Of a stretch of DNA of 64,000 bases, positions 10,960 through 46,451 are shown one piece after another. A model generated the notes under the pieces. The model ran no database searches and was not told the origin of the DNA. It was given only the letters and a program-made list of their open reading frames with translations. Position numbers and translations under genes: made by a program. The stretch is from Solidesulfovibrio aerotolerans (lineage in GTDB: Bacteria; Desulfobacterota; Desulfovibrionia; Desulfovibrionales; Desulfovibrionaceae). Each line of letters starts with the position of its first letter. Position 1 is the first letter of the stretch. The DNA is taken from contig NZ_WVUD01000009.1 in NCBI RefSeq assembly GCF_009856865.1, positions 1 to 64,000 of the forward strand, read 5' to 3'.

Positions 10960-10993
10960 GGGAGAAGAAGAAGAAAAGGCAGAAGATGAAGAT

Positions 10994-11259
10994 GCCTCCG
11001 GCGGCCAAAGGGCTGAGCCCTTTGGAATCCCACCTCAAGGCAAGGGGTTAAGGGGGAACGGTGTTGCGCGATGGTGGCAGGGGCAAAGGGACGGAGAAGA
11101 AGAGAAGGCAGAAGAGGCCTCCGGCGGCCGGGGGGATGATCCCCCCGGACCCCTGCAACTGGAGAAGTTTATAAGGGGGGTGTGGCACTGGTTGCTACGG
11201 TGAGCGGCTCAAGAACGGGACAGCCGCAGGAGGCGCTTGGCGGGAACCACCGTTGCTCC
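10994..11259 (+). repeat. Dispersed repeat copy 1 (modules A+, B+, C)
   Basis: Tandem direct modules: A (10994-11049) with core CCAAAGGGCTGAGCCCTTTGG, B (11117-11180) with core CCGGGGGGATGATCCCCCCGG, and C (11241-11259) CGGGAACCACCGTTGCTCC. Each of A and B starts with GCCTCCGGCGGCC and is preceded by a GA-rich tract. The repeat fills the gap downstream of mqnA; the remaining bases to 11376 show no gene. Confidence 0.85.
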
Positions 11260-21926: not shown

Positions 21927-22145
21927 GCCTCCGGCGGCCGGGGGCCTGAGGCCCCCGGACCCCCCACCGGGAAAAGTTTATCAAGGGGTTTTGGACGTTG
22001 GCTGACACACTGGCCGGCTACCGGCCTGGACAGGCAGCGTGTGTGCTTGACGGGAACCACCGTTGCTCCGGCGGCCATAACCCCTTAAAAAACTTCTTCC
22101 TTTCAGGGTGTCCGGGGGGGATGATCCCCCCCGGCCGCCGGAGGC
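21927..22145. repeat. Dispersed repeat copy 2 (B+, C, B-)
   Basis: 219-base element between the permease stop and the amtB stop. It begins with GCCTCCGGCGGCC and a B core variant (CCGGGGGCCTGAGGCCCCCGG), has module C at 22051-22069, and ends with an inverted B core at about 22112-22134 and GGCCGCCGGAGGC. GA-rich and CT-rich tracts lie just outside each end. The convergent position suggests a shared 3'-end role. Confidence 0.85.
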
Positions 22146-22176
22146 TCTTCTGCCTTCTCTTCTCTCTCGCCCCCAG

Positions 22177-25812: not shown

Positions 25813-25980
25813 GATCCACCTCGTTTAAGCAGGATGCGGCCGTATACCGCCTTTGCCGTTTCTTGTAAAACGGCCCCACGCGCCCAAAGATGGCTCCAAA
25901 CGGCCACAGTCCTTGAATTCGGCCGGTCTTGGCCGTAGTGTGGACGCAACCGGCGCAGCGCCGCCACCACGAGGATGTGC

Positions 25981-27183
25981 ATGGCCCAGGATATCGACCG
26001 CTTCGACGATGCCGACGACTCCGCCATTCGGACCTTCCCCAAGGGAACCACCATCTTCCGGGAAGGCCAGGTCAGCGATGTGGCCTACATCATTAAGATT
26101 GGCCGGGTGTCGATTTATCGCATCCTCAACAACAAACGGGTGCGCCTGGGCGAACGCGGGCCGGGCGAGATGGTCGGGGAAATGGGCGTTATGACCGCCG
26201 ATCCCCGGGGCAGCAACGCCGAAGCCCTGGAATACACCGAAGCCCTGGTGTGCGATAAGCGCCTGCTTCAGACCATGCTGCTCAAAAGCCCGCGTCCGGT
26301 GCAACTGCTCACCGGCTATCTCGTGGACCGCGTCCGGGCTCTGGCAGGCCAGATCACCGACCGCCCTTCGGGCGATCCGTTCCTGTCGGTGTGCCGGGTC
26401 ACCCTGCTCGCCTGGCAGGGCGTGGCCCGCAGCGAAAATCCGCATCTCGTCTACGCCGACTTGTCGCGCACCATCAAAGACATTTTGCTGTTAAGCCAGA
26501 TCGAGATCGACGCCATTTTCGAGCGGCTCAAAAACATGCATCTGCTGGCTGTCACCGACATCAAGGGCAGCTTTCCCCGGACCAATATCCTTGGCTCGAC
26601 CAAACCCGGGCCGGCCTTTGTCAAAGACCGCATCGTGCGCCTGCCCGACCCCGACAAGTTCATGGCCGTGGCCAAGAATCTGGCCCGCGACGACCGGGGC
26701 CGCCAGGAGTTCGGCGTGGACCTGGAATTCTGCGATCTTGGCGACTTTGCCCGGGAGGCCGGCTCCACGCCGGAAATCATCACCAAAAAAATCGGCTACG
26801 GCGAAATCCCCGAGAAGATCTTTTTCTTCCACAAATCCGCCAGCCGGGAATACATCGACGCCATGGGGCCGGATTTTTTCAAGCAGGCCCGCCGGCCGCG
26901 CCTGACCGCCGCCGACCTCGAACACATCGACGACATCACCGCTGTCGATAACGCCACCCTCCAGGAAGTCTTTTCCAACCTGGGCTTTCACAAGGTGGCC
27001 GTGCTGGCCGCCATGGCCGGCGACGCCGCCCGCGACAAGATTTATAAAAACCTCTCCAAAAAGATCGCCGGAATCGTGCGCGACGAAGCCACAGCCCTGG
27101 CCAACCTTGACGACGACGAGGCCGCCGCCGTGGAACAGGAACTGCTCGAGCGCGTCAAAACCATCAAGGGACTCGTCTCGTGA
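25981..27183 (+). CDS. Cyclic-nucleotide-binding protein with FliG-like C-terminal domain
   Basis: 400-residue protein with no signal peptide or membrane helix. Residues ~15-125 form a cNMP-binding domain: FPKGTTIFREGQVSDVAYIIKIGRVSIYR, then GERGPGEMVGEMGVM, where the phosphate-binding region is visible. A helical middle follows. The last ~85 residues resemble the FliG C-terminal motor domain: IDDITAVDNATLQEVFSNLG, then KIYKNLSKKIAGIV and a final helix. No CRP-type DNA-binding helix was recognised. It overlaps motA by 4 bases (GTGA), pointing to a stator- or switch-related job. GAGG lies 6 bases before the ATG at 25981; the ATG at 25975 is too close to it. Function is inferred. Confidence 0.75.
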   Translation: MAQDIDRFDDADDSAIRTFPKGTTIFREGQVSDVAYIIKIGRVSIYRILNNKRVRLGERGPGEMVGEMGVMTADPRGSNAEALEYTEALVCDKRLLQTMLLKSPRPVQLLTGYLVDRVRALAGQITDRPSGDPFLSVCRVTLLAWQGVARSENPHLVYADLSRTIKDILLLSQIEIDAIFERLKNMHLLAVTDIKGSFPRTNILGSTKPGPAFVKDRIVRLPDPDKFMAVAKNLARDDRGRQEFGVDLEFCDLGDFAREAGSTPEIITKKIGYGEIPEKIFFFHKSASREYIDAMGPDFFKQARRPRLTAADLEHIDDITAVDNATLQEVFSNLGFHKVAVLAAMAGDAARDKIYKNLSKKIAGIVRDEATALANLDDDEAAAVEQELLERVKTIKGLVS

Positions 27184-27977
27184 ATATCGCCACCGTCATC
27201 GGCATCGTCTTCGGCATCGTCATCCTTGGCCTTGCCACCTACTTCTCCACCGACAGCGCCGGGGTGTTCGTCAACTTCCCGGGATTGGCCATTGTCCTTG
27301 GCGGCACGCTGGCTTCCACCTTTATCTGCTTTCCGCTTAAGGAAGTCATGCGGGTGTTTAACACCTTCCTCTTAGCGCTCAAACGCGAAGAGCTTCCCAC
27401 CGACCACTATATCGAGGAAATCGTCGATATCGCCCGCGAAGCCTCCAGCCGGGGCAAAATCCATCTGGAAAAATCCCTGCCCGGCATCGAAAACGAATTT
27501 CTGCAAAGCGCCATCCAGATGCTGGTGGACGGCTATTCGCGCGAAGAAATCAAGGAAATCCTCGAAACCCGCATCGAACAGACCTACCAACAGGAACTCT
27601 CCTCGGCCGGCATCTACCGCACCATGGCCAAACTCGCCCCGGCCTACGGCATCATCGGCACGCTGATCGGCCTCATCGGCATGATGCAGTCCATGAGCGT
27701 GGGCCTGGGCAACCTCGGGGCGCACATGGCCGTGGCACTGACCACCACCCTCTACGGCATCTTGCTGTCCAACCTCATCTTCCTGCCCATCGCCATCAAA
27801 GTCGAAAAACGCATCGAGGAACGCGTCATCCTCATGTGCGTCATCCGCGACGGCACGTTGTTTATCAAAGACAAAACCCCGGCCGCCATCGTGCTCGACA
27901 AGCTAAAGGCCTACCTGCCGCCGCGCCGCTGGGCCTCCATCGACCGCCGCGAAGCCCAGGACGCCGACGAGGTTTAG
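27180..27977 (+). CDS. motA: Flagellar stator protein MotA
   Basis: 265-residue inner-membrane stator subunit of the flagellar motor; with MotB it conducts ions to power rotation. Four hydrophobic segments are present: two near the N-terminus (ATVIGIVFGIVILGLATYF and NFPGLAIVLGGTLASTFI), then a cytoplasmic loop with charged residues, and two more containing the conserved prolines (LAPAYGIIGTLIGLIGMM and LLSNLIFLPIAIKVEKR). The GTG start overlaps the upstream CNBD-FliG-like gene. Its usual partner motB is not next door but at 45273-46232 on the other strand. Confidence 0.93.
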   Translation: MNIATVIGIVFGIVILGLATYFSTDSAGVFVNFPGLAIVLGGTLASTFICFPLKEVMRVFNTFLLALKREELPTDHYIEEIVDIAREASSRGKIHLEKSLPGIENEFLQSAIQMLVDGYSREEIKEILETRIEQTYQQELSSAGIYRTMAKLAPAYGIIGTLIGLIGMMQSMSVGLGNLGAHMAVALTTTLYGILLSNLIFLPIAIKVEKRIEERVILMCVIRDGTLFIKDKTPAAIVLDKLKAYLPPRRWASIDRREAQDADEV

Positions 27978-29464: not shown

Positions 29465-29630
29465 GCCTCCGGCGGCCAAAGGGGTGGCCCCTTTGGAATC
29501 CCTCCTGGAAGGCAAAGGGTTAAGGGGGGGACGGCGTTGCAGTGACGGTGGGTGGGAGCGGGAAAGGCATTTCCGTCGGGCGAGCAATGCCGCAGGGCAA
29601 GCTTGACGGGAACCACCGTTGCTCCGGCGG
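29465..29630 (+). repeat. Dispersed repeat copy 4 (A+, C)
   Basis: Module A at the left (core CCAAAGGGGTGGCCCCTTTGG) with the inner AATCCCTCCTGGAAGGC stretch, then a central segment with GCAATGCCGCAGGGCAAGC and module C at 29607-29625. The inverted right-hand B module seen in copies 2 and 6 is missing, so this copy looks truncated. The remaining ~100 bases to the terminator hold only a small hairpin (CGAGGC-GCAA-GCCTCG, 29703-29718). Confidence 0.8.
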
Positions 29631-35370: not shown

Positions 35371-35525
35371 GCCTCCGGCGGCCGGGGGGGATAATCCCCC
35401 CCGGACCCCCTTGCCAGAAGAAATTTTATAAGGGGGACTATGTTGCAGCGGCGGACGTTGCCCCCCTAAACCCCTTGCCTTTCAGGTGGGATTCCAAAGG
35501 GCTCAGCCCTTTGGCCGCCGGAGGC
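35371..35525. repeat. Dispersed repeat copy 5 (B+, A-), short form
   Basis: 155-base element starting 5 bases after the Sel1-protein stop and ending just before the Smr stop. Left GCCTCCGGCGGCC with B core (CCGGGGGGGATAATCCCCCCCGG), middle GCAGCGGCGGACGTTGCCC and right inverted A core ending GGCCGCCGGAGGC. A CT-rich tract with repeated TTCTGCC follows to about 35550. Convergent-gene position as in copy 2. Confidence 0.85.
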
Positions 35526-44944: not shown

Positions 44945-45233
44945 GGCCTCCGGCGGCCAAAGGGGTGGCCCCTTTGGAATCCCTCCTGGAAGGCAAAGGG
45001 TTAAGGGGGATGGCGTTGCCGCGATGGGTGGGTGGGATCAAAATGCACTTGCGTCGGGCGGGCAATGCCGCAAGGCAAGCATGACGGGAACCACCGTTGC
45101 TCCCGTCACGCGCTTCTTTCGGCTTTCCTGGCCCCCAGCCGGCCCGTTCGCCAGGAAACGCCCATATCCCCTTGAAAAAACTTCTCCCATTCAGGGGGTC
45201 CGGGGGGGATGATCCCCCCCGGCCGCCGGAGGC
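44945..45233. repeat. Dispersed repeat copy 6 (A+, C, B-), longest form
   Basis: 289-base element starting 33 bases after the RR-TPR stop and ending 40 bases before the motB stop. It has left GCCTCCGGCGGCC with A core, central GCAATGCCGCAAGGCAAGC and module C at 45085-45103, and right B core inverted, ending GGCCGCCGGAGGC. GA-rich tract outside the left end, CT-rich outside the right. Confidence 0.85.
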
Positions 45234-45272
45234 CTCTTCTGTCTTCTCCTCTCTTGCACTCCCCCACTCCCG

Positions 45273-46232
45273 CTACGGGCTGACCAAAATCACGACGCGT
45301 CGATTTTTCGCCTGGTTTTCCGGGATGCTGCGTCCTGCCGGGTCGGTGTTGGGCGCGACCGGCAGGGTGTCGGCCAGTCCTTCGACGCGCATGTGGTCGC
45401 GGGGCACGCCGTTGTCGATGAGAAAGCGGGCCACCCGGCTGGCCCGGGCCGAGGACAGTTCCCAGTTGGAGGGATAGAGCCAGGATTCCATGGGCAGATT
45501 GTCGGTGTGGCCTTCCACGGTGATTTTATACGGCGTGCCGGCCAGGGTGGCGGCGATGTCGCGCAACAGCGGCACACCGCCGGGTTTGACCTCGGCGCTG
45601 GCCAGATCAAAAAAGGCCGCGCCGCGCAGATTGAGCTCCACGCCGTTTTCCCGAGGCTTCACTTCCACGTTGCCTGACGCAATATCGAGCTTGGCCGAAA
45701 GCTCTTTGCGAATGTCGTCGAGGCTCTTTTTGGTCGGCCCGGTGCGTTCATTGGCGGCTTTATCCGCCGGCGTTTCGGGTTTGGCCGGCTGTTGGGCCTC
45801 GGCTGGCTGGCCTTCTCCCGGCGTTTTGGCCAACTCGGGCGTTTTGGCCGGCTCGGGCTGGACCGGTTTGGGCGCAGGCGGTTCCAGCGGCGGGGTAGGT
45901 TCGCTGGCCAGGGTGGTGTGGGTGACTTTGGAGCGCACCATGGGTTTTTCGACCGGCGGTTGGGCGGGGGCTGGAGCCGGAGCCGGAGCCGGGGCGGTCC
46001 TGCCGACAACGGGCGGGGATACCCCGGGGTTTTTGCGGGGCGCGGGCTTGTCCTGGACCATGGCCTGCTGCATGGAATCGGCCACGCGCTCGTAGCGGTT
46101 GAGATCCACATGGGACACGGCCACGAGCAGCAGGAAAAAGCACAGCAACAGCGTCATCATGTCGGCCAGGGAAATAGGCCAGAGGTCTTCGTCGTCGTGG
46201 TGGCGTTTGCGCAGATCCGACAATTTGAGCAC
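45273..46232 (-). CDS. motB: Flagellar stator protein MotB
   Basis: 319-residue stator partner of MotA. Single membrane helix with the ion-binding aspartate in LWPISLADMMTLLLCFF (about D24), a long proline/alanine-rich linker (residues ~70-165) and a C-terminal OmpA-like peptidoglycan-binding domain (ITVEGHTDNLPMESWLYPSNWELSSARA). The linker is longer and more low-complexity than in many MotB proteins. It is separated from motA by 17 kb and is on the opposite strand, flanked on both sides by repeat copies. Confidence 0.93.
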   Translation of the reverse strand: MLKLSDLRKRHHDDEDLWPISLADMMTLLLCFFLLLVAVSHVDLNRYERVADSMQQAMVQDKPAPRKNPGVSPPVVGRTAPAPAPAPAPAQPPVEKPMVRSKVTHTTLASEPTPPLEPPAPKPVQPEPAKTPELAKTPGEGQPAEAQQPAKPETPADKAANERTGPTKKSLDDIRKELSAKLDIASGNVEVKPRENGVELNLRGAAFFDLASAEVKPGGVPLLRDIAATLAGTPYKITVEGHTDNLPMESWLYPSNWELSSARASRVARFLIDNGVPRDHMRVEGLADTLPVAPNTDPAGRSIPENQAKNRRVVILVSP

Positions 46233-46273
46233 GGCAGTATGGTCCTTTTATTTCTTGCGCGGGGGCACGGAAT

Positions 46274-46429
46274 GCCTCCGGCGGCCAAAGGGGTGACCCC
46301 TTTGGAATCCCACCGGGAAGGCAAGGGGTTTATAGGGACAACGTCTGCCGCTGCAACCCAATCCCCCCTTGAAAAACTTCTCCCATTCAGGGGGGCCGGG
46401 GGGGATGATCCCCCCCGGCCGCCGGAGGC
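46274..46429. repeat. Dispersed repeat copy 7 (A+, B-), short form
   Basis: 156-base element 42 bases upstream of motB. Left A core (CCAAAGGGGTGACCCCTTTGG), middle CAACGTCTGCCGCTGC, right inverted B core, ends GGCCGCCGGAGGC. The mirror order of copies 3 and 5, confirming that the unit can be inverted. Confidence 0.85.
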
Positions 46430-46451
46430 CTCTTCGCTTTATCTTCTTCGC

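Follow-up and report, generated by a model that had tools for sequence, protein, structure and literature searches.

A gene standing directly before motA in the window (the whole stretch of DNA analysed here, 64,000 nucleotides in length) encodes a 400-residue protein in which an N-terminal cyclic-nucleotide-binding (CNB) domain is combined with a C-terminal domain resembling part of FliG. This protein is probably a cyclic-nucleotide-responsive cytoplasmic partner of a special MotAB stator, on whose MotA it would dock by means of its FliG mimic, and cyclic nucleotides may directly control one power unit of the flagellar motor. In many genera of the family, the receptor gene is linked to one and the same stator class. 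Table 1 shows the features of the locus and of the displaced motB gene.

Table 1. Features of the CNB-FliG_C cassette and of the inverted segment within the window.
Feature	Position	Strand	Basis
Gene for the CNB, winged-helix-like, HTH-like, FliG_C protein, 400 aa	25981..27183	+	ORF, Pfam, family alignment A2
CNB domain, residues 17-101; pocket Glu67 and Arg76	26029..26283	+	Pfam E 4.5e-18; residue conservation
Segment resembling a winged helix, about residues 134-195, CRP-like in its position behind the CNB domain	26380..26565	+	Weak profile matches; common to the distant homologue
Second HTH-like segment, about residues 248-294, HTH_17-like	26722..26862	+	Weak HTH_17 matches in relatives; profile comparison
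FliG_C-like domain, residues 315-394; K361, D368, E369 and D377 corresponding to E. coli FliG R281, D288, D289 and R297	26923..27162	+	Pfam, hhalign 96.6%, residue tables
Cassette motA, starting with GTG and overlapping the preceding gene by 4 bases	27180..27977	+	Pfam, NCBIfam; clade in 63/199 genomes
Repeat copy, left end of the inverted segment	27987..28151	+	Inverted repeat of 46269-46440 at 85% identity
Displaced motB of the cassette, with MotB_plug and OmpA domains	45273..46232	-	Pfam; best-matching relatives follow motA in 62/62 other loci
Repeat copy, right end of the inverted segment	46269..46440	-	Repeat comparison; synteny with L068

Domains of the 400-residue protein

The reading frame, for which an in-frame ATG at 25975 offers an alternative start that would add two residues, carries at its N-terminus a cNMP_binding domain (PF00027) that scores 65.4 bits by Pfam hmmscan against a cut-off of 27.5, and the cyclic-nucleotide-binding domain proposed in an earlier note on this DNA is thereby borne out. 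The same note had aligned the C-terminus with FliG by eye and named a profile search as the check; this search was positive, with a FliG_C match of 32.5 bits that exceeds the curated cut-off of 23.3 (E 1.1e-7). The same FliG_C coordinates were recovered in a whole-genome family search, in which the true fliG of the genome was found on a different contig (E 6.5e-41). In a family alignment of 27 CNB-FliG_C proteins (A2), cNMP_binding and FliG_C were both matched in every member at a permissive threshold (E <= 10; best FliG_C E 4.8e-12), and the order of CNB domain, putative winged-helix-like part, putative HTH_17-like part and FliG_C is common to the family. A deeper alignment of the family comprised 98 sequences. 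Locus L007, the same place as L067, was omitted from the family and MotA alignments, and over-long frames were trimmed N-terminally, near the aligned start, before residues were counted.

A profile of the C-terminal half, built from 26 members, matched 13 distinct sequences in the PDB (E <= 10): 11 were FliG chains (E 1.9e-10 to 0.05), the best of them ungapped over 80 residues, and the remaining two were latexins (E 0.37 and 1.8). Profile-profile comparison with six FliG sequences placed 85 gapless columns onto residues 234-318 of the genome's own FliG with a probability of 96.6%. Since the C-terminal part alone matched the FliG profile with a probability of 97.5% but the middle region with just 0.3%, the FliG-like part is, as judged from these profiles, the torque subdomain alone; a FliG_N or FliG_M hidden in the middle region is ruled out by the same low figure. 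FliG_M is absent from the Pfam list of the protein, FliG_N reaches 12.9 bits against a cut-off of 25 and is positioned over the C-terminal part, and the fliG equivalog model TIGR00207 (NCBIfam) gives 16 bits against a cut-off of 226.7. The Pfam, PDB-profile and hhalign results rule out a chance match or an artefact of alignment by eye. When modelled with AlphaFold2 from an alignment of two sequences (the window's and that of L007), the full-length protein had a pLDDT of 37.7 and its C-terminal 103 residues one of 64.8; Foldseek, queried with the latter model, returned nothing at E <= 0.001, and FliG is absent from the best 50 of 65 matches.

Pairing with one MotA clade and the MotA-FliG interface

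The TGA stop of the gene (27181-27183) overlaps by four bases the start of motA (MotA_ExbB, E 3.1e-25 in Pfam), whose GTG lies at 27180, exactly where the earlier note had placed both genes and their overlap. With residues 154-400 as the query, a match at E < 1e-12 was obtained in 64 of 199 sampled genomes of the family, including all 14 sampled from the organism's own genus; of the 199 genomes, 50 fall short of 90% completeness or exceed 5% contamination. Over 297 genomes of the class, a C-terminal profile matched 68 at E < 1e-20, all within the same family, and other families of the order gave just FliG-length matches (about 1e-7 to 1e-10). Over 395 genomes of the phylum, a profile of the C-terminal half (E <= 1e-11) matched eight, four of them family members and four others with frames of 327-330 aa that were matched over the FliG_C part only, three of which aligned as FliG; this profile and threshold missed the homologues in another family of the phylum (f6) that are described below. 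A scan of genome contigs with single-sequence patterns found one locus. A local, one-off fusion is ruled out by the matches across family and class genomes.

The distribution of the gene follows that of one type of MotA. Used as a query, the window MotA scored 324-564 bits in 63 of the 199 family genomes, the next-best MotA paralogue reaching 160 bits, and all 63 of these genomes carry the CNB-FliG_C gene; this MotA clade was therefore not seen without the gene among the 199 genomes, with common descent as a caveat. The sole carrier among the 64 without a window-type MotA (G408) holds a divergent, stand-alone copy (L144). Gene context was taken from 78 fetched regions, which yielded 63 loci (window included) with the gene directly before motA, that is, in every sampled genome with a window-type MotA, so the co-conservation that the earlier note had proposed to look for is present. 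The distance between the two genes is -4 in 49 of these loci, -1 in 12, +3 in one and +58 in one, which makes an overlap in 61. Apart from the window, motB follows motA in all 62 loci, at distances that range from -142 to 328 nt; the strongest match to motB at L095 is a frame of just 134 aa.

The earlier note had named homologues broadly away from motA as a finding that would speak against its reading; such copies are present, yet of few kinds. The 32 copies that do not lie upstream of motA comprise 15 tandem pairs, the copy at L144 and a second copy at L104. The tandem paralogues occupy 15 loci of one genus, g253 (L124, L128 and L131-L143), and no motA match was found near them within the fetched regions. 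Since these unlinked paralogues exist, the domain can also be of use where no motA stands next to it. At L124 the tandem pair is flanked by genes for a membrane protein and a biotin-ligase-like protein, both named by eye. The second gene of L104 (5136-7166, minus strand), situated behind motB, lies in a frame of 676 aa whose CNB domain is preceded by about 270 residues, and its FliG_C match of 17.9 bits is below the cut-off. The genome of the window itself holds many stator-like units, with MotA_ExbB and MotB_plug matches near each other on four contigs (C73, C117, C102 and C30) and a strong MotA_ExbB match standing alone on C79.

The neighbours of the gene in the window have the domains of a MotAB stator, namely MotA_ExbB, MotB_plug and OmpA in Pfam; the motB gene, though, is displaced. 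The order at the near relative L068 is motA, motB and then a stretch that matches positions 44878-42139 of the window. An inversion of about 18 kb between inverted repeat copies has apparently separated motB from motA, and this would account for the displacement; alternatively, the split arrangement could be an assembly error. Further copies or parts of the dispersed repeat, which measures about 170 bp, were observed at 10992-11178, 21927-22146, 29465-29529, 35371-35525 and 44946-45239.

The pairing can be followed down to single residues. In PMC6079164, MotA R90 and E98 and FliG R281, D288 and D289 are given as the primary residues, and MotA E150 and FliG K264 and R297 as the secondary ones; the R90-D289 pair serves stator assembly and the E98-R281 pair serves torque. 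Among the 63 copies linked to motA, the R281 site is Lys in 61, the D288 site Asp or Glu in 59 and the D289 site Glu in 61; K264 is kept in one copy, and the R297 site is Asp or Glu in 60. The 63 partner MotAs retain E98, P173 and P222 throughout, and have Arg in place of E150 in 62. R90 is found in none of them (Ser in 42, Ala in 15, a gap in four, Gly in one and Thr in one), which leaves the cassette MotA with one of the two FliG-contact residues R90 and E98, and a basic residue occurs at position 92 in 59. Of the other MotA-like proteins of the genome, on C73, C117, C102 and C30, the two that were aligned (C73 and C117) retain R90 and E98 and are acidic at position 150, and the genome's own FliG is canonical, with K264, R281, E288, D289 and R297. 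The 32 unlinked copies, 30 of which belong to g253, have Lys at the R281 site in 31 cases, but an acid at the D288 site in just six and at the R297 site in 18. The three f6 proteins, counted separately, all keep K264 and an acid at both 288 and 289, and have Gln at the R281 site and Thr at the R297 site. A second count of the interface residues agreed with the first. The opposite reversals at MotA 150 and at the FliG 297 site would fit a matched pair; each charge change, however, is uniform within the clade and could have arisen just once, so that the changes provide no test of covariation.

Proposed role and rival explanations

In the mechanism proposed here, the FliG_C-like domain would present a copy of the charged helix of FliG to the cytoplasmic loops of its own MotA, and the N-terminal domain would bind a cyclic mononucleotide, cAMP or cGMP. 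The FliG mimic would shift its position or its oligomeric state when the ligand binds, and on this shift it would depend whether the stator stays idle, is drawn to the flagellar motor or is set free for it. Of this proposal, we infer the clutch effect, the ligand and the physical contact. Brake, clutch and recruiter are indistinguishable from sequence; we give occlusion, in which a decoy rotor would block the stator for as long as the nucleotide state stays the same, a slight edge over active recruitment, since a FliG mimic within reach of MotA would be a competitor of FliG. The direct input of nucleotide into the stator/switch interface, which the earlier note had suggested as a new kind of motor control, can fairly be inferred. 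A more far-reaching version is put forward tentatively, as a possibility less likely than the simple partnership: this stator class would no longer dock on canonical FliG alone, and a FliG_C mimic gated by cAMP or cGMP would form its obligate clutch or adaptor to the C-ring. The MotA surface (R90 lost, E150 to Arg) would then have been rebuilt to match the mimic (R297 to Asp). In this version, the cell would shift the power unit of the cassette in and out of gear with cAMP or cGMP.

The middle of the protein bears on a different explanation, that of a CRP-kind transcription regulator that would bind both a cyclic nucleotide and DNA and control motAB or other motility genes, with the FliG-like module reading the state of the motor. 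In agreement with this, the CNB domain is followed by winged-helix-like and HTH_17-like segments; a profile of the winged-helix-like region (A7) weakly matched CAP chains (E 0.63-1.6) and a regulator (E 0.09), and with the first half of the middle profile two genomes gave matches (E about 1e-4) in frames of 246 and 260 aa, the same frames that the whole protein had earlier matched from the CNB domain onward. The second HTH-like segment is conserved in profile comparison (E 2.8e-10), and its identity as HTH_17 is suggestive only: the matches in relatives were all below the cut-off (E 0.041 in L144, 0.014 in L011 and L012, and 0.22 in L013), and HTH_17 is not listed by Pfam for the window protein. 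Neither HTH segment, however, reaches a curated cut-off, and the CRP equivalog model NF008732 (cut-off 266 bits) gives 21.8 bits. Read by eye, the stretch that would be the recognition helix in the first HTH is acidic in the window (SQIEIDAIFERL), and both the pairing with a MotA clade and the kept charges of the torque helix would be superfluous for a DNA-binder, so that a regulator of this kind is considered unlikely.

The CNB domain might also be structural only, or serve another ligand, in a protein that acts as a constitutive stator assembly factor or chaperone. The pocket residues Glu67 and Arg76 correspond to the Glu and Arg of the phosphate-binding cassette, which we take to hold the ligand. 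In three of the 63 linked copies Phe replaces the Arg, as such a role would allow. However, Arg76 is kept in the other 60 and Glu67, Gly66 and Ala80 in all 63, the pattern of a pocket under selection. The genome also has two class III cyclase matches, which means that a cyclic-nucleotide ligand can probably be made in the host. An assembly factor indifferent to cyclic nucleotides is quite improbable.

A variant rotor subunit, whose FliG_C-like domain would replace some of the FliG_C in the C-ring and alter switching when nucleotide binds, is very doubtful. The homology over the torque subdomain and the FliG_M match in all 63 carriers would suit it. FliG is seated in the ring by FliG_N and FliG_M, however, and the FliG_C-like domain comes without either of them, its middle region being unlike FliG, which is why a partner of the stator is favoured over a subunit of the switch. 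Moreover, the gene is located with stator genes, and the genome's own FliG remains canonical at all five interface positions.

The cassette is, besides, associated with flagella and its distant homologues with chemotaxis genes. Of the 199 family genomes, 173 have a FliG_M match, including all 63 cassette carriers, and therefore none of the 26 genomes without FliG_M carries the cassette (hypergeometric 2e-5, relatedness not corrected for). In three genomes of the family f6 (L170-L172), a homologue aligns nearly end to end (364 columns, 99.9%), the middle alone reaching 97.2%. It lies near che genes, with cheA and cheB confirmed by Pfam in L170, cheA in L172, and those of L171 recognized by eye; the same contig holds a complete fliG in L170, and a FliG-like frame stands at the contig end in L172. 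No motA match was found near the f6 homologues. A profile of the middle domain matched 12 of 297 phylum genomes, three of the family and three of f6 strongly and six weakly; one of the weak matches (L173, genome G089) has a CNB domain and no FliG_C at E <= 0.05. The least likely explanation of all is an autonomous, non-flagellar rotary machine in which MotAB would turn against, or signal through, a private FliG-like protein: the loss of R90 and reversal of E150 in MotA, the reversal of R297 in its neighbour and the MotA-like and MotB-like genes found together on four further contigs would be in keeping with it, whereas the presence of FliG_M in every carrier, the absence of the cassette from all 26 family genomes without FliG_M and the distant homologue beside che genes argue against it.

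Relation to known systems

No description of a protein joining CNB and FliG_C was found in the open-access literature searched, and one may exist elsewhere. Most known cases of stator control by second messengers involve c-di-GMP and PilZ proteins, and the c-di-GMP brakes of the YcgR/PilZ type are soluble second-messenger receptors that act on MotA/FliG. The 400-residue protein would likewise be a soluble receptor acting on MotA/FliG; unlike YcgR, it has a CNB domain as the receptor and a copy of FliG_C as the effector, its gene stands directly before the stator genes, and no PilZ/YcgR domain appears in its Pfam list. If this is true, a mononucleotide receptor with a copy of the rotor torque domain would represent a new way to gate a rotary motor.

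With the CRP/FNR regulators the protein shares a CNB domain and perhaps a winged-helix-like segment behind it, and differs from them in its extra HTH-like and FliG_C parts. From FliG it has the torque subdomain, 80 residues without a gap, in which the charges at 281, 288 and 289 are mostly kept; on the other hand, it has neither FliG_N nor FliG_M, R297 is reversed and K264 is lost. The cassette MotA resembles PomA/MotA in its MotA_ExbB domain and in keeping E98, P173 and P222, but forms a separate clade in which R90 is lost, E150 has become Arg and the CNB-FliG_C gene precedes motA. This natural second MotA-FliG interface, with its altered charges, would be useful for testing the electrostatic model of torque.
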